In this document: positions 4,208 through 31,671 of the stretch, one piece after another | How positions within the stretch are numbered: position 1 is the stretch's first letter | Layout: the number at the start of each line of letters is the position of its first letter | The notes under the pieces: generated by a model | The model's input: only the letters and a program-made list of their open reading frames with translations | The model's database searches: none | Told to the model about the DNA's origin: nothing | Source of the DNA: Candidatus Berkelbacteria bacterium CG10_big_fil_rev_8_21_14_0_10_43_13 | GTDB taxonomy: Bacteria > Patescibacteriota > UBA1384 > XYA2-FULL-43-10 > 1-14-0-10-43-13 | Length of the DNA: 32,271 nt | Reading direction: 5' to 3' | Assembly (NCBI GenBank): GCA_002773985.1 | Contig: PEZW01000027.1 | Location: 1 to 32,271 of the forward strand | Made by a program: the position numbers and the translations under genes

Positions 4208-4318
4208 TGGCTCGCCTGTCATTTGTCATCTCGGTCTGACCGCCGGCAAAGCAGGGAAGTCGCGGTATAAAGTTTTTAACTTGCTCAGTTTCCGTTTCCA
4301 CTGTATGACAGATCTAGC

Positions 4319-4346
4319 TTAATTCTGTATTCTGTATTCTTAATTC
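4319..4346. repeat. 7-bp tandem array
   Basis: TTAATTC TGTATTC TGTATTC TTAATTC. Confidence 0.75.
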
Positions 4347-4353
4347 TTGCCTT

Positions 4354-5506: not shown

Positions 5507-5516
5507 ATGTGGCAAA

Positions 5517-5544
5517 AATTTCTAATTTCTAATTTCTAATTCCT
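5517..5544. repeat. 7-bp tandem array
   Basis: AATTTCT x3 + AATTCCT. Confidence 0.85.
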
Positions 5545-5662
5545 GCCTCGCCGGCAGGCGGGTCTAAACAAACTTCAAATCTCAAGCACTAAATCTCAAA
5601 TAAAATCACAATCATGCAATCAGAATTTGTTTTAAGATTTTGGGCGTGAAATTTAGTTAGAG

Positions 5663-18329: not shown

Positions 18330-18436
18330 TTTCAAGTAATCACGAAAATACAAAATTATAAGAAAATACGAAAATTTTGAGTTTCGGAATTTGAAGTTCA
18401 TTTAGTCCCCCAAAGGGGGATCTCCCTTCGGGAGAA

Positions 18437-18471
18437 AATTAGGAATTAGGAATTAGGAATTAGAAATTGGA
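18437..18471. repeat. 7-bp tandem array immediately upstream of rpsT
   Basis: AATTAGG x3, AATTAGA, AATTGGA. Confidence 0.9.
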
Positions 18472-18485
18472 GCGAAAGCGACCTT

Positions 18486-19033: not shown

Positions 19034-19081
19034 AAACAAATTCAATACTTTTAACTTTTTACTTTAAACTTTTAACTAAAC

Positions 19082-22378: not shown

Positions 22379-23686
22379 TTATTTGTTCCAATTATCTCCG
22401 ATACTCACATTTGCTTCGATCGGGACGCACAGAGTGACGACGCTTTCCATCACCTCTTTGACCAATTTAGCTATCTCGTCAGCATGTTTTGCTGGTGCTT
22501 CAACCACCAATTCATCGTGAACAGTCAATAACAGTTGCGAGTCCCGAGTTCCGAGTCCAGAGGAAGTCGCGGCTCCTTTTGTACTCGGTACTCGATACTC
22601 GGTACTTAGTCTCTTGTCTAGCTCTATCATCGCTAGTTTCAAGATCTCCGCTGCCGTTCCTTGGACAGGGGAATTGATGGCAATTCTTTCCTCGGCTTCA
22701 GCAATATAACGAATGTGAGATTTCAGATTTGGCAGATAACGGCGTGTGCCGAAAAGAGTCTCGACATAACCTTTATCATGGCCCATCGTGATCATTTTGT
22801 TGACATAATTTTTGATGCCGGTATGAATATCAAAATAATTTTTGATATAAAGTGCTGCTTCGTCGATGGGAATCGCGAGCGATTGAGACAGGCCGTATGG
22901 TGTCTGGCCGTAAACAATACCAAAATTAACCGCCTTGGCCTTGCGTCGTTGATCCGAGGTCACTTTCGAGAGACTGATGCCGAATATTTCGGCAGCTGTC
23001 TGAGTGTGAATATCGTCACCGTTTTTGAACGACTCAATCATCGCCCTGTCTTGCGCCAAGCAGGCGACGACACGCAGCTCGATCTGGGAATAATCAGCCG
23101 AGATCAATTTCATGCCTTTGTCAGCGACAAAAGCACTGCGGATTTTCTCCCCATATTTGCCGCGGATCGGGATATTTTGCAAATTTGGCTCAGACGAATT
23201 TAGGCGACCAGTCGAAGTCTCCATGCCATAAGTAGTGTGGAGACGTGAGTTTTCATCAACGAGAAGGGGTAGCGGTTTGAGATAAGTCGAGATCAGTTTG
23301 GCGATCTCACGGTACTCGAGAATTAGGGAAATAATTTTGTGTTGATCTTCAATTTTTTTCAGTTCACTAGCGGCAGTCGAGAATCCGTCCTTGGTCTTTT
23401 TCAAATTATTTGTCGGTAATTTCAGCTCATCAAAAAGGACGTCAGCCAACTGGCTTGGGGAAGCAACATTGAAATCACGACCAGCTAAAGTATGAATACT
23501 TCTTACCAATTTATCTAGTTCTGAAGCCAAGTTTTTTTCTAGTTTGCCAAAAACTTTGACATCGAGTTTGATGCCGTTTTTCTCCATTTCTCGCAAAACC
23601 GGTTTGACCGCCTCGTCAATTTCTTCCGAAGTAATTGCTGGAATTTTCATCCCTAGTTTATTGGCTTTTTCCAAAATCTCGTTCAA
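22379..23686 (-). CDS. polA: DNA polymerase I, polymerase domain only (split PolA)
   Basis: Motif A DYSQIELR, motif B RRKAKAVNFGIVYG, motif C VHDELV; TTG start with AGAGG upstream. Confidence 0.93.
   Translation of the reverse strand: MNEILEKANKLGMKIPAITSEEIDEAVKPVLREMEKNGIKLDVKVFGKLEKNLASELDKLVRSIHTLAGRDFNVASPSQLADVLFDELKLPTNNLKKTKDGFSTAASELKKIEDQHKIISLILEYREIAKLISTYLKPLPLLVDENSRLHTTYGMETSTGRLNSSEPNLQNIPIRGKYGEKIRSAFVADKGMKLISADYSQIELRVVACLAQDRAMIESFKNGDDIHTQTAAEIFGISLSKVTSDQRRKAKAVNFGIVYGQTPYGLSQSLAIPIDEAALYIKNYFDIHTGIKNYVNKMITMGHDKGYVETLFGTRRYLPNLKSHIRYIAEAEERIAINSPVQGTAAEILKLAMIELDKRLSTEYRVPSTKGAATSSGLGTRDSQLLLTVHDELVVEAPAKHADEIAKLVKEVMESVVTLCVPIEANVSIGDNWNK
22534..22613. repeat. Heptad hairpin repeat (GTACCGA/TACTCGG) in frame within polA
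   Basis: GTTGCGA GTCCCGA GTTCCGA ... TACTCGG TACTCGA TACTCGG TACTTAG. Confidence 0.9.
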
Positions 23687-24182
23687 TTCTTGCCTCTCTG
23701 GCTATTTTTTCTTCTTGTTGTTTTTTGTTTACCCAATCATACAATTCTGGGCAGATTTTATCTTTGGGCAGTTTGTGTTCGAGCTCACGCATAAACCAAA
23801 TTCTAGCATATTTGATTGTGGAAAATGGCTTGCTTCTAGTCAGCGCCATTTGAACATCTTTATCAAACATAAGTTTGTCTGAACAAAGCAAAATATTACT
23901 AGAATTACTTTCGGTTGCTGCCATGACAATTTCTTTGTCATCTCGAAATTTCAGTAAGTATTGGAGTACGGCAGCGTCCCCAGGTGTCGCAGTAGAAGCT
24001 GTGGCTAGAGCAACGTCTCGATCTTGACGGAGATCTGCTGGGACACTGGCAATTGCCATTGGGTTTTGTCGCAGTTCTTCGATCAGTTCTTCTTTCTCAA
24101 TATCTCCGACTTCTCTTAACGTTGGTTTTTCCGGCTCAGGCTGCTCAACTTCTACTGGATTATATTGTGCTACTTCTGACAT
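23658..24182 (-). CDS. DUF4116-like repeat protein located between PolA exonuclease and polymerase ORFs
   Basis: RQDRDVALATAS...FRDDKEIVMAATES...MFDKDVQMALTRS repeats; GAGG SD; overlaps the polymerase start by 29 bp. Confidence 0.7.
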   Translation of the reverse strand: MSEVAQYNPVEVEQPEPEKPTLREVGDIEKEELIEELRQNPMAIASVPADLRQDRDVALATASTATPGDAAVLQYLLKFRDDKEIVMAATESNSSNILLCSDKLMFDKDVQMALTRSKPFSTIKYARIWFMRELEHKLPKDKICPELYDWVNKKQQEEKIAREARIERDFGKSQ

Positions 24183-24190
24183 GTTTTCCT

Positions 24191-25288
24191 CTATATTAAT
24201 CTCAACTGATCGTCTTTGGCTTTTTGTTTTTGTGCTTTTTCTGTTTTAACTGGGTCGGATTTTTCGATACCGAAGCGACGAAGGAGTGAATGAAATCGCA
24301 TTTTCTCAAAAAACTCTCGGACCTTATCCTTATCATAATCGCCCCAAGCGCAATCTTCAAGTTCGAAATCAAGTGGAACGTCGCGGCGAATCGTGGCCAA
24401 TCTTTGTGAGAGGAAAGCCTGCTCCTTGTTCATGATTAGCGATTTAAGTGCTGCTGGTTTAATATCGAGTTTTTTGCTTAAATTTTTAATAATTTGATCG
24501 TTGGGATTTGGGATTTGATTAGAAATTAGAAATTCGGATTTAGAAATTAGCCCAGCATCACTCAAGGATTCAGCTAATTGTTGATACAAATTTTTCAAGG
24601 TGTCGTATTGTTGTAATAATTTTGTCGTCGTCTTTGGACCAATCCCAGGTACCCCAGGAATATTATCCGACGGATCGCCGGCTAGAGCCTTCAGATCGAT
24701 GAAATCTTCTGGCTGCAAATTCCAGTCCTTTTCAATCTCAGCCCGACCAACTATTTGAGCGTTACTGAGCCCGTGTTTGAGGTTGTAGACGAATACTCCG
24801 CCATTGACCAATTGAAATGCATCCTTGTCACCAGTGACGATGTAGATTCGTATTACGTATTTCGTATTACGTATTATGGGTGCTTGTATCTTGTATCTTG
24901 TATCTTGTATCTTTTGAACAATTGTTCCTATGACGTCGTCTGCTTCAAATCCCTCTTTTTCGTAAACCGGAATATTTAATGATTGAAGGAGTTCGCGGAC
25001 GCGGGGAATTTGATCGTAGAGTTCCTGATCGGCCTTGACTCGAGTACCCTTGTATTCCTTGTACTCTTCGTGCCGAAAAGTCGGACCGGCCAGATCAAAA
25101 GTAGCGGCGATATAGTCCGGCTTCAGATCTTCCAATATTTTAATAAAGGTCGTCGTATAGCCGTAAACCGCGTTGGTCATCTCACCGCCGGGCAAAGACA
25201 TTGTTTTTGGTAGCGCATGATAAGCGCGATGAATTATCGCATTCGAGTCGATCAGCACTAAGGTTTTAGTTTTGTCTTCTTCACTCAT
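24191..25288 (-). CDS. 5'-3' exonuclease (PolA N-terminal domain) as separate ORF
   Basis: LVLIDSNAIIHRAYHAL; EGFEADDVIGT; IVTGDKDAFQLV; GDPSDNIPGVPGIGPKTTTKLL. Confidence 0.93.
   Translation of the reverse strand: MSEEDKTKTLVLIDSNAIIHRAYHALPKTMSLPGGEMTNAVYGYTTTFIKILEDLKPDYIAATFDLAGPTFRHEEYKEYKGTRVKADQELYDQIPRVRELLQSLNIPVYEKEGFEADDVIGTIVQKIQDTRYKIQAPIIRNTKYVIRIYIVTGDKDAFQLVNGGVFVYNLKHGLSNAQIVGRAEIEKDWNLQPEDFIDLKALAGDPSDNIPGVPGIGPKTTTKLLQQYDTLKNLYQQLAESLSDAGLISKSEFLISNQIPNPNDQIIKNLSKKLDIKPAALKSLIMNKEQAFLSQRLATIRRDVPLDFELEDCAWGDYDKDKVREFFEKMRFHSLLRRFGIEKSDPVKTEKAQKQKAKDDQLRLI
24501..24549. repeat. 7-bp-period array, 7 units, inside exonuclease ORF
   Basis: TTGGGAT TTGGGAT TTGATTA GAAATTA GAAATTC GGATTTA GAAATTA. 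Confidence 0.9.
24849..24911. repeat. Two adjacent 7-bp arrays (CGTATTA x4 degenerate and TTGTATC x4 exact) inside exonuclease ORF
   Basis: 24849-24876 CGTATTA CGTATTT CGTATTA CGTATTA; 24884-24911 (TTGTATC)4. Confidence 0.95.
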
Positions 25289-25401
25289 GATCACATAATA
25301 ACGGAAAAGAGAGCAATTGAGAATAACAAAATAGTTTTGTTTGCTTCGGCGGATCTTTTTGCATATAATAAGTTCAAGCATTAATTTGTAAGGAGCTAGT
25401 G

Positions 25402-26155: not shown

Positions 26156-26162
26156 TGGATTG

Positions 26163-26190
26163 GATCCTCGGGTCAAGCCCGAGGATGACA
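26163..26190. repeat. GATCCTCGGG-TCAA-GCCCGAGGATGACA palindromic repeat
   Basis: CCTCGGG/CCCGAGG dyad; would encode MDPRVKPEDDN in the extended ORF. Confidence 0.85.
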
Positions 26191-26201
26191 ACTACAAAAA
26201 G

Positions 26202-28709
26202 ATGGATAAAAACTTGATAGTTCAAACAAATGGCACGGCGATCCAGAAAGCCGTCAATCTCGAGAAAATATTCTCCATTTTTTTGGCGAAGTTCATATTT
26301 TTTATGATCTATCCGGCGGGAATTCTCTCAATAATTTATATTTTTTTGGTTAATTTTTTCCCAAACGCAATTGTTGGCGTCGCTACGACTTGGCTCGGTC
26401 TGGCATATCTGCTGTTGGCGGTTTTCCTAGTATTTTTAGCTATCAAGTCCTTTTTTGTCCAAAGATTGAAAAGGGTTCCAATCGGAGCCCTGAGCGAACT
26501 GAAGGAAAATCTGGCCAAAAACGAACCGGTCAATCTTTTTGCGGTTTTCTCTTTTGGTCTAGCCAAGGCAACTTCATCCCTGTTTTCAAATAAAAAAATT
26601 GAGGCCATAACATTAAAAGAATTAAGTCAGTATTTGTTGCAAGCCGACGATATGTCCTTTATCATCTTGCGTCTCGGTCTGAATCCAGCTGATGTTACAA
26701 ATGCCTTAGAAAACGATCAAAAAGTCGCCGATATTTTGTTGGCTGCCGTTGATATTGCCATCGCCGACAATCACAATGGTATTTGTTCCGGCGATCTTTT
26801 TTTCTCTCTTTATCAAGCTTCGGCTGGGCTGAAAAATTATCTTCAAAACTTTCAGGTCGAAGCGACCGACATCAAGAGTCTCATCGATTGGCAAAACAAA
26901 GTCACGGCAGAGATCGAATCGCGACAGGGCGTCTTCAATGCAAGTAGCTTTCGTTTTAGTGGTGGTGTTGGGAAGGACTGGTCCTTTGGCTACACTGTTT
27001 TCTTGCGGAAATTTTCTGTCGACCTGACGGAATCAATCGAAAATTACGGGCTTGGTCTGGAAATAATCGGTCGCGACAAAGAGATCAAACAGATCGAGGA
27101 TGCGCTGTCTCGTGCTGGAGGGGCAAATGTTGTATTAGTTGGTAACGCAGGCATTGGTAAACACACCACTGTTCTTGGTTTTGCCAAGAAAGTTATTGAC
27201 GGTGAAGTCCCGCGCGGCATTGCCCATGATGATATTTTGCAGATTGATACTGAGGCTCTCATTTCTGGCGTTAGTTCTGAGGGAGATATCATCCAGCGTT
27301 TTTCTGCTTGCTTGTCGGAAGCTGCTGCTGCTGGCAATATTATCGTTCTGATTGAGAATATTGACAATCTATTTTCTGCTCAGGGTATCGGCACGGCTGA
27401 TCTGACCGCTGTCCTGTCGCCATACCTTGAAAGCGGTGCGATGCATATCATCGGTACTAGCGAAGTCGGCCCGTACAACAAGTACATCGCTGCAAATACG
27501 TCGCTGGCAAACCATTTTGTTCGGGTTTCAGTCGAGGAACCACAGGGCGAAAATTTGGTCAAAATTCTTGAGGATACCGCGCCGACGATTGAGTCGAGAA
27601 CTGGCTCTATCGTCACCTTTGAGGCGATCAAGGCAGTTATCAAGTCTGCGCAGAGGTACATGGTCAATCTGACCGAGCCGGAGCGCTCTATTACTTTGCT
27701 TGAAGGTGCGGTCACCAGAACGACCACAGAGAGAGGCAAGACGATTGTTATCGATTCTGATGTTGCAGATTATATTTCCGAGAAATTTGAATTGCCAGCA
27801 GCCCAGGCGGGGGAGAAAGAAAAAACCAAACTGCTCAATCTGGAAAAGATAATGCACGAATCTGTGATCGGTCAGGATGAAGCGATCAAGGCGCTTGCCG
27901 GTGCGATGCGGCGAGCTCGGGCGCAGGTGACAGATTCACCGAAACCAATCGGCTCGTTCCTTTTTCTCGGTCCGACCGGTGTCGGTAAGACAGAAACGGC
28001 CAAGGCCCTTGCGCGTGCCTATTTCGACAATGCCAACAATATGATCCGTTTTGACATGTCGGAGTATCAGACCAAAGCCGATATTTATCGTTTGATCGGG
28101 ACCAAGGATGAGACTGGCAATCTGACGACTTATGTAATGGAAAAACCTTTCTCTCTTCTGCTTTTTGATGAAATAGAAAAAGCCGATCCGGATATTCTTA
28201 ATTTATTTCTACAAATTCTCGACGAAGGCATCTTGACTGATGGCCGCGGACAAAAAGTTTCTTTCTCTAATACAATTATTATTGCGACCTCAAATGCCGG
28301 CTCTGATGTCATCAGCCAGACACTCGGTCAAAATGCCAATTATGATCAGCTAAAAAACACTCTGTCACAATATCTGATCGAGCAGCACCTTTTCAAAGCA
28401 GAGCTACTAAACCGCTTTACTGGAGTAATTGCATTTTCACCACTCGATCAGAAGATGATTGCAGAGGTGGCAAAATTATTGATTAAAAATTTACAATCGA
28501 CTGTTCTGAAGAACAAGGACATTAAAATTGAAATTGCGCCCGATGCTATTGATTATCTAGCGGCAGCCGGCTTCGATCCGAAGATGGGTGCCAGACCGAT
28601 GCAGCGGACAATCGCTGATAAAGTTGAAAATATGCTGGCAGAAAAAATCCTCAAGAACGAGATTAAGAAAGGGGATGGTTTGACAATTACAAAGGAGATG
28701 ATTAGTTAG
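26202..28709 (+). CDS. ClpC/ClpB-like double AAA+ ATPase with N-terminal transmembrane segments
   Basis: D1 GNAGIGKHT; D2 GPTGVGKTETAKALA and LLLFDEIEKADPD; GARPMQRTI sensor 2; hydrophobic N-terminus. Confidence 0.88.
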   Translation: MDKNLIVQTNGTAIQKAVNLEKIFSIFLAKFIFFMIYPAGILSIIYIFLVNFFPNAIVGVATTWLGLAYLLLAVFLVFLAIKSFFVQRLKRVPIGALSELKENLAKNEPVNLFAVFSFGLAKATSSLFSNKKIEAITLKELSQYLLQADDMSFIILRLGLNPADVTNALENDQKVADILLAAVDIAIADNHNGICSGDLFFSLYQASAGLKNYLQNFQVEATDIKSLIDWQNKVTAEIESRQGVFNASSFRFSGGVGKDWSFGYTVFLRKFSVDLTESIENYGLGLEIIGRDKEIKQIEDALSRAGGANVVLVGNAGIGKHTTVLGFAKKVIDGEVPRGIAHDDILQIDTEALISGVSSEGDIIQRFSACLSEAAAAGNIIVLIENIDNLFSAQGIGTADLTAVLSPYLESGAMHIIGTSEVGPYNKYIAANTSLANHFVRVSVEEPQGENLVKILEDTAPTIESRTGSIVTFEAIKAVIKSAQRYMVNLTEPERSITLLEGAVTRTTTERGKTIVIDSDVADYISEKFELPAAQAGEKEKTKLLNLEKIMHESVIGQDEAIKALAGAMRRARAQVTDSPKPIGSFLFLGPTGVGKTETAKALARAYFDNANNMIRFDMSEYQTKADIYRLIGTKDETGNLTTYVMEKPFSLLLFDEIEKADPDILNLFLQILDEGILTDGRGQKVSFSNTIIIATSNAGSDVISQTLGQNANYDQLKNTLSQYLIEQHLFKAELLNRFTGVIAFSPLDQKMIAEVAKLLIKNLQSTVLKNKDIKIEIAPDAIDYLAAAGFDPKMGARPMQRTIADKVENMLAEKILKNEIKKGDGLTITKEMIS

Positions 28710-29206
28710 TAGCAAGTACCGAGGCACGAGTACCGAGTACTGAATACTGATTGGGGGCAAAATGGCTTTTTGTAAATTTGAAGAAATAATTGCATGGCAA
28801 AAATCAAAAATATTAGTCGTTGAGTGTTATAAAACTTTTCGAAATCTGAGAGACTACTCTTTCAAAGATCAGATACTTCGGGCTGTCGTTTCTATTATGA
28901 ACAATATTGCTGAAGGCTTTGAAAGAAAAGGCGAGAGACAATTCCGTCATTTTTTATTTATCTCAAAAGGTTCGTGTGCTGAAGTCCAATCAATGCTCTA
29001 TTTAGCACTCGATCTAAAATATATCTCAGATGATCAGTTTAAGGATTTATCGGAAAAATCTATCGAAGTTTCTAAACTTTTGGCTGGATTAATCAAGTCA
29101 TTGACAGAATAAGCACCCCTTTAAAATATTTGTTTTCAGTGCTCGGTACTCGTGCCTCGGTACTTATTACCTAAAACTCGGTACTCGTGCCTCGGTACTT
29201 GCTACT
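28708..29206. mobile_element. Candidate IVS-like element: heptad-repeat inverted repeats enclosing a four-helix-bundle (S23/IVP) gene
   Basis: AGTAGCAAGTACCGAGGCACGAGTACCGAGT (28708-28738) is the exact reverse complement of 29176-29206; second partial right copy at 29135-29164. Confidence 0.7.
28762..29112 (+). CDS. Four-helix-bundle protein (23S rRNA IVP/S23 family)
   Basis: FEEIIAWQKSKILVVECYKTF...LRAVVSIMNNIAEGFERKGERQFRHFLFISKGSCAEVQSMLYLA. Confidence 0.92.
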   Translation: MAFCKFEEIIAWQKSKILVVECYKTFRNLRDYSFKDQILRAVVSIMNNIAEGFERKGERQFRHFLFISKGSCAEVQSMLYLALDLKYISDDQFKDLSEKSIEVSKLLAGLIKSLTE

Positions 29207-30617
29207 TATGTATGTAGATCTGTGTTCCGATCTCTGTCCAATTGTAGAGTGCTTCAGCTGGGCCGATGCCGAGGCGGATGCAACCGTGAGAAACGGGGAT
29301 ACCGAGGTGATCGGCGCCCTCCTTGTAGCCATTTGGCCATTCTGGTAGTTCGTGCAAGCCCCAGCCACCGGCTTTGAACTCTTCCCACCACGGCATCCAG
29401 AGACCAGCAGAACTACTCCAGCGCCGCGGGCTTTTATTTAGAATTGAATAAGTACCGGTCGGTGTTGGCATAGATGCTTTGCCGGTGGAGACAGTCGTGC
29501 ACTCGACTAGATTGGTGCCCTCGATCCGACACAGTTTTTGCGTGGCCAAGTTGACATCAATATATTTACCGTCGAACCGTCCCAAGACAAGTCCTTCGTT
29601 TGGTACAATTCTAACCTCTTTGGCTGGAGTTGTCGTCGTGGTCAGGGCGACCGCAACGATACCTTGACTTAGCTGACTATTCAAACTGGCAACGGCTGCG
29701 TCTTTGTCGAGCGACACACCTTCGCGTCCAGCATCGATGACTTCATTTGTTGTCGCATTGACTTTGCGCTGAAGCATCCCAACCTCAAAATTTTTAGCAA
29801 TAATATTGAGATACGCCTTGACATTATTACTGTTCAGCTGGGCAGTGGTCTGACCATCTGAAGTTACAAATTCGATCCAGGTGTCGATCTGTACAGCTGT
29901 CGGTGAATATGATCTGCCACTATATGTAAAAGAATATTTCTTGGCCAACAAGTCTGTCGCTTGTTGCTGGGCTTGACTAAAGTCGGCATCAGACACATTC
30001 GGTGGTGTTGTCGAAGCAGCCAGACTAATCACACTGCTGTTTGTACCAGCCAAATTGATCAGGGAATCTTTCAACTGTTCTGTGCTGACCGTCACTCCAC
30101 TGGCACTGTTTTGAAGCACGACCTGACCGTTCTGGACCGTCAGCGCCGCATCTTGGGGTGTGACGTTTAGTTGAGCCACAGCAATATCGACGAACTGCTT
30201 GTATTTTTCCTGACTTATCGCCGGAGTGGCAGCCAGATTGTTCTTCCGAAACAATGTCAGCATGGAAGTTTTGAGCTGATTGACGAACGAGCCGGATCTA
30301 CCAATTTTATAACTTTGCTTGATCACACTGTCAGAGTCAAAACTTAAGCCTGTGTCTGCTAGAGTTGCGCTGACAGACTTGTCGTTGGCGGAGATGGTAA
30401 CCCTGCGATTGAGCACAGATCGTATCTCGTTGTCGAGTAAATATTTCGCTTGTATCTTGGTCTTACCTGACAGATTGATCTCACTGAAATAAATGTTCTT
30501 ATAGATCTTACCGGCGTAGACTTTTTGATACGAAAAAAGGGTGACCGACAAGCCACCAATTAACACTATTATAATGAAAAGCACGATTAGTAGATTTTTT
30601 TTTGTTTTTAGATGCAT
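29202..30617 (-). CDS. L,D-transpeptidase (YkuD) with N-terminal TM and PG_binding_4-like region
   Basis: GLHELPEWPNG...HLGIPVSHGCIRLGIGPAEALYNW catalytic motif. Confidence 0.92.
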   Translation of the reverse strand: MHLKTKKNLLIVLFIIIVLIGGLSVTLFSYQKVYAGKIYKNIYFSEINLSGKTKIQAKYLLDNEIRSVLNRRVTISANDKSVSATLADTGLSFDSDSVIKQSYKIGRSGSFVNQLKTSMLTLFRKNNLAATPAISQEKYKQFVDIAVAQLNVTPQDAALTVQNGQVVLQNSASGVTVSTEQLKDSLINLAGTNSSVISLAASTTPPNVSDADFSQAQQQATDLLAKKYSFTYSGRSYSPTAVQIDTWIEFVTSDGQTTAQLNSNNVKAYLNIIAKNFEVGMLQRKVNATTNEVIDAGREGVSLDKDAAVASLNSQLSQGIVAVALTTTTTPAKEVRIVPNEGLVLGRFDGKYIDVNLATQKLCRIEGTNLVECTTVSTGKASMPTPTGTYSILNKSPRRWSSSAGLWMPWWEEFKAGGWGLHELPEWPNGYKEGADHLGIPVSHGCIRLGIGPAEALYNWTEIGTQIYIHK

Positions 30618-31595: not shown

Positions 31596-31671
31596 TGGTG
31601 GGCCTGGCAGGGTTCGAACCTGCGACCAAGCGGTTATGAGCCGCCTGCTCTAACCACTGAGCTACAGGCCC
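31596..31671 (-). tRNA. tRNA with CAU anticodon and encoded CCA; looks more like tRNA-Ile2 (CAU, lysidine) than elongator Met
   Basis: GGGCCTGTAGCTCAGTGGTTAGAGCAGGCGGCTCATAACCGCTTGGTCGCAGGTTCGAACCCTGCCAGGCCCACCA. Confidence 0.93.

Follow-up and report, generated by a model that had tools for sequence, protein, structure and literature searches.

The DNA analysed here (the window) comprises positions 1-32,271 of contig C28 of genome G000, a genome of the CPR type that totals 838 kb in 28 contigs. Within it, the genes for a ClpC-like ATPase and a YkuD L,D-transpeptidase converge on a short gene encoding a protein of the S23/IVP family, and this gene is bounded by inverted arrays of a seven-nucleotide repeat. 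The features of the locus are:

26160-28709, + strand, left host gene, ClpC-like ATPase (ORF, profile match); its stop codon (28707-28709) touches the left arm
28708-28737, + strand, left arm, one 30-nt unit AGTAGCA AGTACCG AGGCACG AGTACCG AG (26/27 to the unit of the dispersed copies); the perfect inverted repeat extends to 28738
28738-28750, + strand, further heptads of the left array in degenerate form (TACTGA ATACTGA), which extend into the ribosome-binding region
28762-29112, + strand, S23/IVP four-helix-bundle protein, 116 aa (PF05635, E=1.9e-33; TIGR02436; AF2 pLDDT 96.8; Foldseek)
29142-29171, - strand, inner right-hand unit, inverted with respect to the left arm (23/27 to the shared unit)
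29177-29206, - strand, outer right-hand unit, complementary to the left arm at every position (26/27 to the shared unit)
29202-30617, - strand, right host gene, YkuD L,D-transpeptidase (ORF, profile match); its stop codon (29202-29204) lies within the right arm

The ORF at 28762-29112 matches PF05635 with a score of 115.3 bits (cut-off 33.8) and TIGR02436 with 111.6 (cut-off 24), bearing out its earlier assignment to the S23/IVP type. PF05635 is the sole domain of the flanked gene, which is not a Y1/HUH transposase. A search of the window against Rfam gave a tRNA (31599-31671) as the only match, with no rRNA and nothing at the element; the element therefore lies outside rRNA, between the clpC-like and ldt genes.

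The arms at 28708-28738 and 29176-29206 are complementary at 31/31 positions, as an earlier note made from the sequence had described, and chance does not account for a perfect repeat of 31 bp within 500 bp. The same note was right that the stops of both host genes touch the arms. It had also recognized a second right-hand copy; this is present, preceding the outer one and 91% identical to it, but it lies at 29142-29173, about 7 nt later than had been given. The seven-nucleotide periodicity of the arms is real. Twelve period-7 arrays were found in 65 kb of this genome against none in shuffled sequence, and any other period gave 0-2.

Two ORF-less relatives of the hairpin had been proposed in the window, and both prove to be inverted pairs of the same 30-nt unit (at 1342-1420, and inside polA at 22533-22613):

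1342-1371, + strand, left of two inverted units, without ORF, in the interval separating the NRDD and radical-SAM genes (25/27)
1391-1420, - strand, right unit of the pair between the NRDD and radical-SAM genes (22/27)
22533-22562, + strand, first of two inverted units lying in frame within the DNA polymerase I gene (23/27); the frame is open and the DNA_pol_A domain complete
22584-22613, - strand, second unit of the pair inside polA (21/27); at this point polA of the sister species has a GTACTCA array

Copies of the GTACCGA family at unrelated sites have in common the unit AGTNGCA AGTACCG AGNNCCG AGTACCG AG, with sharp ends, and this is found singly, as an inverted pair with a short spacer, or around the IVP gene. 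Turnover of arrays by slippage and recombination would also yield heptads, but it would not put one ordered unit at unrelated sites. Since unrelated sites do carry one ordered unit with sharp ends, the GTACCGA family in this genome is not the product of free slippage. Besides intergenic positions, the units occupy in-frame positions within genes: mnmA has three insertions, recG at least three, and polA is a further case. The central unit of mnmA corresponds to a 24-nt excess over the sister species, where the site has no array. Arrays within genes keep the reading frame and seem to be translated. Nine in-gene units are unpaired, spread over six genes, and all nine are in the sense orientation; this bias may arise from selection on the peptide or from the insertion process.

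We note several further arrays. The mnmA and recG genes (L092:350-4485) together hold at least six in-frame heptad units, and the same loops in relatives hold other heptad-like inserts. Two arrays of CGTATTA and CTTGTAT types, apparently of other repeat families, lie at 24846-24918 inside the 5'-3' exonuclease gene (24191-25381). Single period-7 arrays are present at 18433-18473, 19047-19077, 5513-5549 and 4318-4350 (AATTAGG, ACTTTTA, AATTTCT and TTCTGTA types), some of which resemble arms found around IVP genes elsewhere in this genome, e.g. L007. DNA polymerase I is itself split here into two ORFs, one for the polymerase domain (22379-23686) and one for the 5'-3' exonuclease (24191-25381), with a further ORF (23658-24182) between them.

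The genome contains seven genes matching PF05635, and 7/7 lie between their own inverted heptad-like arrays. The period is 7, in some cases 8-9, and the sequence is distinct at each locus:

window locus, GTACCGA
L001, period-8 repeats of GTCAGCTT type (the weakest arms, with a spanning score of 28)
L002, GAATCAT/GAATTAT
L003, TAGGTTT/TAGGACA
L004, AAAGTTTGT
L006, TAGTGGA/TAGTTGA
L007, TTCTAAA/TCCTAAT

The analysis was extended to IVP genes from CPR relatives (80 genomes searched), from named genomes of many phyla, and from gammaproteobacterial and Bacteroidota genomes. The left flank of each gene was locally aligned with the reverse complement of its right flank, taking a score of ≥30 as the threshold. 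Spanning inverted arms were found for 125 of the 162 IVP genes (77%), in many bacterial phyla, while about a quarter of the genes missed the threshold. When flanks were swapped between genes only 2/162 (1%) reached it (p=1e-46); in direct orientation 17/162 did so, and other short genes in the same DNA gave 3/166 (2%). Among 105 clear left arrays the period was 7 in 76, 8 in 16 and 9 in 11, compared with none in shuffled flanks, and the median length of the period-7 arrays was 4.4-4.6 units. Arms were also present around 21/24 IVP genes on IMG/VR viral contigs; no relative was found in phage records. Inverted array pairs more than 200 nt apart enclosed an IVP gene in 25 of 35 cases, a count biased by the choice of loci around IVP genes. 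The remaining 10 pairs enclosed no other cargo gene but ordinary sequence between separate copies (e.g. pilins, a segment of mnmA). The earlier note had inferred that the architecture of the S23 intervening sequences (IVSs) of rRNA exists here outside rRNA. There is indeed a free-standing counterpart, with ORF-less relatives, and it is general across the IVP genes surveyed. The original observation is right and the phenomenon is much larger, for the rule, the protein-repeat pairing described below and the insertion within genes all go beyond the single case that had been seen.

Some individual loci in the survey deserve mention. In several Flavobacteriia IVP elements lie at the sufC-sufD (L242, L249) or sufA-sufB (L236, L257, L343) junctions, which suggests old insertions or hot spots. 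In plasmid pANA02 of Anabaena sp. 90 (L340) an inserted element separates cas6 from cas4 in a type I-D CRISPR operon. The IVP gene of Grimontia hollisae (L289) has a very long CAGGACC heptad array on its right and degenerate GGACCTGGG-type repeats on its left. A 1.5-Mb gammaproteobacterial genome (G509:C1) contains 11 weak PF05635 matches, of which 10 are near-identical (31-34 bits); these are probably a divergent relative that has multiplied recently.

The distribution of arrays follows that of the genes. No period-7 array was found in 359 kb from ten genomes lacking IVP genes, whereas there were 23 in 307 kb from eight genomes having them, and 25 in 145 kb of this genome; periods other than 7 were near zero. 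These densities come from sampled stretches, and the samples are small. Three of the eight IVP genomes (G018, G023 and G029, each with few genes) yielded no arrays from samples of 40 kb apiece. The correspondence is an association, not proof. The protein and its arms also co-vary. For 118 genes, comparing pairs between genomes, none of 500 Mantel permutations reached the observed correlation between protein and arm similarity, and arms were alike in 17% of the closest protein pairs but in under 1% of distant pairs. GAATNA-type heptads, for example, are common to L002, L085, L087 and L090 in four genomes. The result is compatible with co-evolution of recognition as well as with joint horizontal transfer.

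In the sister species (G001), which belongs to the same genus, the corresponding ClpC-LdT junction also holds an IVP gene. It too has inverted repeats, so that the refutation foreseen in the earlier note did not come about. ClpC is 72% identical between the two species and the IVP protein 65%. The IVP gene is in the opposite orientation to that of the window, between collinear flanks. The window protein is equally similar (65%) to its in-genome paralogue L004, so that orthology between the two species rests on position. The arms in the sister are GTACTCA in place of GTACCGA, and the dispersed arrays follow suit, being GTACTCA/GTACTGA in the sister and mainly GTACCGA in this genome; neither the GTACTCA nor the GTACCGA type was found in 13 other relatives. 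An array occurs at the same point of polA in both species, each with its own species' sequence. Arms and dispersed copies therefore change together within a species, either because insertion recurs at a hot spot or because old arrays are overwritten by copying.

Comparison of strains for empty sites gave a clean result in Pseudomonas but not among the CPR relatives, where ClpC synteny provided no clean empty site and the neighbours differ outside the sister species. An element of P. cremoricolorata is located between cysD and cysN, and the query matched in 100/100 genomes searched. Thirty cysD-cysN loci were read, of which 12 are empty, 14 full and 4 partly deleted. The spacing between the anchors is 66-69 nt in the empty sites (flank identity about 90-94%), 506-552 nt in the full ones and 230-404 nt in those partly deleted. 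No target-site duplication could be made out on comparing full with empty sites, the spacer being too short and diverged for this and unrecognizable in the full sites. The Pseudomonas IVP protein has a median dN/dS of 0.12 (41 pairs, with dS near saturation) and is under purifying selection. The copies look like the result of vertical descent from one insertion, so that movement there would be old, and loss is as visible as gain.

The predicted fold of the window protein (AF2 pLDDT 96.8) is closest in Foldseek to 2gsc (TM 0.90), the solved structure of Xanthomonas XCC0516, followed by 2rld (TM 0.83) and then Avd (4dwl, TM 0.79); the diversity-generating retroelement (DGR) particle is also matched. 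The IVP entries 2gsc and 2rld and the Avd entry 4dwl each contain five chains. Five subunits and arrays of four to five heptads suggest that each subunit might read one heptad. The IVP protein has no recognized nuclease domain and no known catalytic residues, so an enzyme is missing from any model based on it. Two candidate partners were considered. This genome has three Y1_Tnp genes, one close to the L007 IVP gene, but Y1_Tnp is absent from G076 (100% complete) and G078 (99%), both dense in arrays, and a REP transposase was rejected as a required partner. Reverse transcriptase was rejected likewise, since RVT_1 has no match in G000 (91% complete), in G001, or in G059 (100% complete, with 12.5 arrays per 100 kb).

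We consider it probable that the locus represents a two-part element of wide distribution, similar in plan to REP/REPIN-RAYT, in which the trans-acting protein is the nuclease-less IVP bundle. One part would be the S23/IVP gene bounded by two inverted arrays of about four to five heptads, and the other the gene-less array copies dispersed singly or as inverted pairs. The IVP protein would act in trans as a specificity factor that reads the heptads, perhaps one per subunit as the five chains in the crystal entries of both solved relatives suggest. Its target would be DNA, and within the array probably just one of the strands; the left arm on the gene strand is poor in C (10% C, 26% G), which makes recognition of a single strand plausible. 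Cutting and copying would be left to host enzymes of replication or repair, or to an unrecognized nuclease. This interpretation draws on the architecture and its generality, the species-specific pairing of arms and arrays, the co-variation, the occupied and unoccupied sites and the copies within genes. The empty and full sites and the dispersed ordered unit support mobility, and from these we infer, rather than prove, transposition itself. Since the repeats that surround IVP genes are also scattered through the genome and inside genes, they and the gene together have the look of a single selfish element that has been overlooked.

The earlier note had suggested a mobile or an RNA-processed family, and it is the first of these that the data favour. 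If the element worked at the RNA level its arms would form a stem from which RNase III excised an RNA that was functional or mobile. There is a precedent in the rRNA IVSs, which have a 28-bp stem and are processed by RNase III (PMC4990558), and the window arms are long and complementary. A wobble test between arms, however, gave 88 G-U-compatible transitions against 98 that would break a wobble pair (p=0.51), so that maintenance of the arms as an RNA stem is not supported and they behave as two inverted copies of the array, not as a conserved RNA helix. Moreover many dispersed arrays are single, with no partner with which to pair, those within genes are in frame and apparently translated, and RVT_1 is missing from the three genomes named above. 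An RNA-level element is on this evidence unlikely.

We think it more improbable still that the system is a regulatory one, in which IVP binds heptads in mRNA leaders in the manner of TRAP, and the arrays, multiplied by slippage and not mobile, make up a regulon. The left array does lie directly before the IVP start codon, and translational regulation has been proposed for TAACTGA heptads (PMC4679880). But the right arm has its heptads on the other strand, arrays occur inside the mnmA, recG and polA reading frames, and neither the ordered 30-nt unit at unrelated sites nor the empty and full sites in Pseudomonas would be expected. A retroelement, in which a reverse transcriptase with IVP as its Avd-like accessory adds copies of the arrays to the genome in DGR-like or telomerase-like fashion, would accommodate the fold match to Avd and the DGR particle and the C-poor left-arm strand, which is like telomeric repeats; with RVT_1 unmatched even in the complete, array-rich G059 it is very improbable. 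Spread of the arrays by REP-associated tyrosine transposases, with the IVP genes as passengers, is the least credible explanation, being already contradicted by the dense arrays in G076 and G078, and by the correspondence of the arms to the IVP gene between them and their co-variation with its protein, notwithstanding the Y1_Tnp genes of this genome.

The two-part element has anatomical links to the IVSs of 23S rRNA in Leptospira and Coxiella, which have the same protein family and terminal inverted repeats around the S23 ORF. In the Coxiella IVS (GACAGAT)3 GACAGAA is reported to lie directly before the S23 ORF, together with a 28-bp terminal stem (PMC4990558), so the anatomical link holds. 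IVSs with S23 ORFs are processed by RNase III and their mobility was proposed in the 1990s (PMC4990558), and IVP ORFs also occur within CPR rRNA genes (PMC11270868). By contrast, the elements described here lie between or inside protein genes, in many copies and with gene-less arrays, and give no sign that an RNA stem is maintained. The rRNA IVSs with S23 ORFs might then be the same element caught in rRNA, where it is removed by RNase III.

In REP/REPIN-RAYT systems the gene always lies between two inverted cognate repeats, the repeats are dispersed singly or as inverted pairs, and gene and repeats co-evolve (PMC2817692, PMC8266576). The likeness is one of analogy, not homology. The IVP gene also lies between inverted cognate repeats that are dispersed, but the protein is unrelated and has no HUH nuclease, the repeats are heptad arrays instead of short GC-rich palindromes, and the element is present in genomes without Y1_Tnp. 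We rate the system as one of the S23 IVS kind that probably works like REP-RAYT without its transposase. Avd shares the fold and the five chains seen in 2gsc and 2rld, but sequence identity is about 10% and this genome has no reverse transcriptase that we could find. Rickettsia palindromic elements are short repeats lying in frame inside conserved protein genes, as the heptad units do here; we know of no heptad structure or partner gene for them.

Dispersed tandem repeats of period 7, including the cyanobacterial STRRs, have been described before, as GGGAATC in Xanthomonas and GGGGA(T/C)T in Nostoc (PMC4692102), and as TAACTGA in Beggiatoaceae, cyanobacteria and Bacteroidetes, where no mechanism was evident (PMC4679880). 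They often have four units, are mostly intergenic, and form inverted pairs close together (70 cases in Xcc) (PMC4692102, PMC4679880). Those papers made no link to a gene, whereas here the arrays are tied to IVP genes. Arms of GGGANTN type flank IVP genes of a Nostoc plasmid (L341) and of gammaproteobacteria (L345, L369), and IVP elements may be a source of such heptamers, which have been a puzzle in bacteria. Within the open-access literature, to which the search was confined, no publication was found that connects IVP genes with heptad repeats dispersed in genomes.

A more far-reaching proposal, to which we give a little less than even credence, is that this is a new class of mobile DNA in most bacterial phyla. 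In this a nuclease-less oligomeric helical bundle would read tandem heptads, one per subunit, and guide host machinery that copies the array into new sites, with rRNA IVSs, cyanobacterial STRRs and the heptamers of Xanthomonas and Beggiatoa as its products.

The element offers a single answer to two old questions, the purpose of the S23/IVP proteins in rRNA IVSs and the origin of the over-represented 7-base repeats of bacteria, for which the papers of 2015 found no mechanism. Both become testable with a small crystallizable protein and a 30-nt substrate. It would explain many strain-specific in-frame insertions in conserved proteins, which is relevant to annotation and structural work on the CPR, and it would provide, beside REP-RAYT, a second independent case of the evolution of a repeat with its partner gene.
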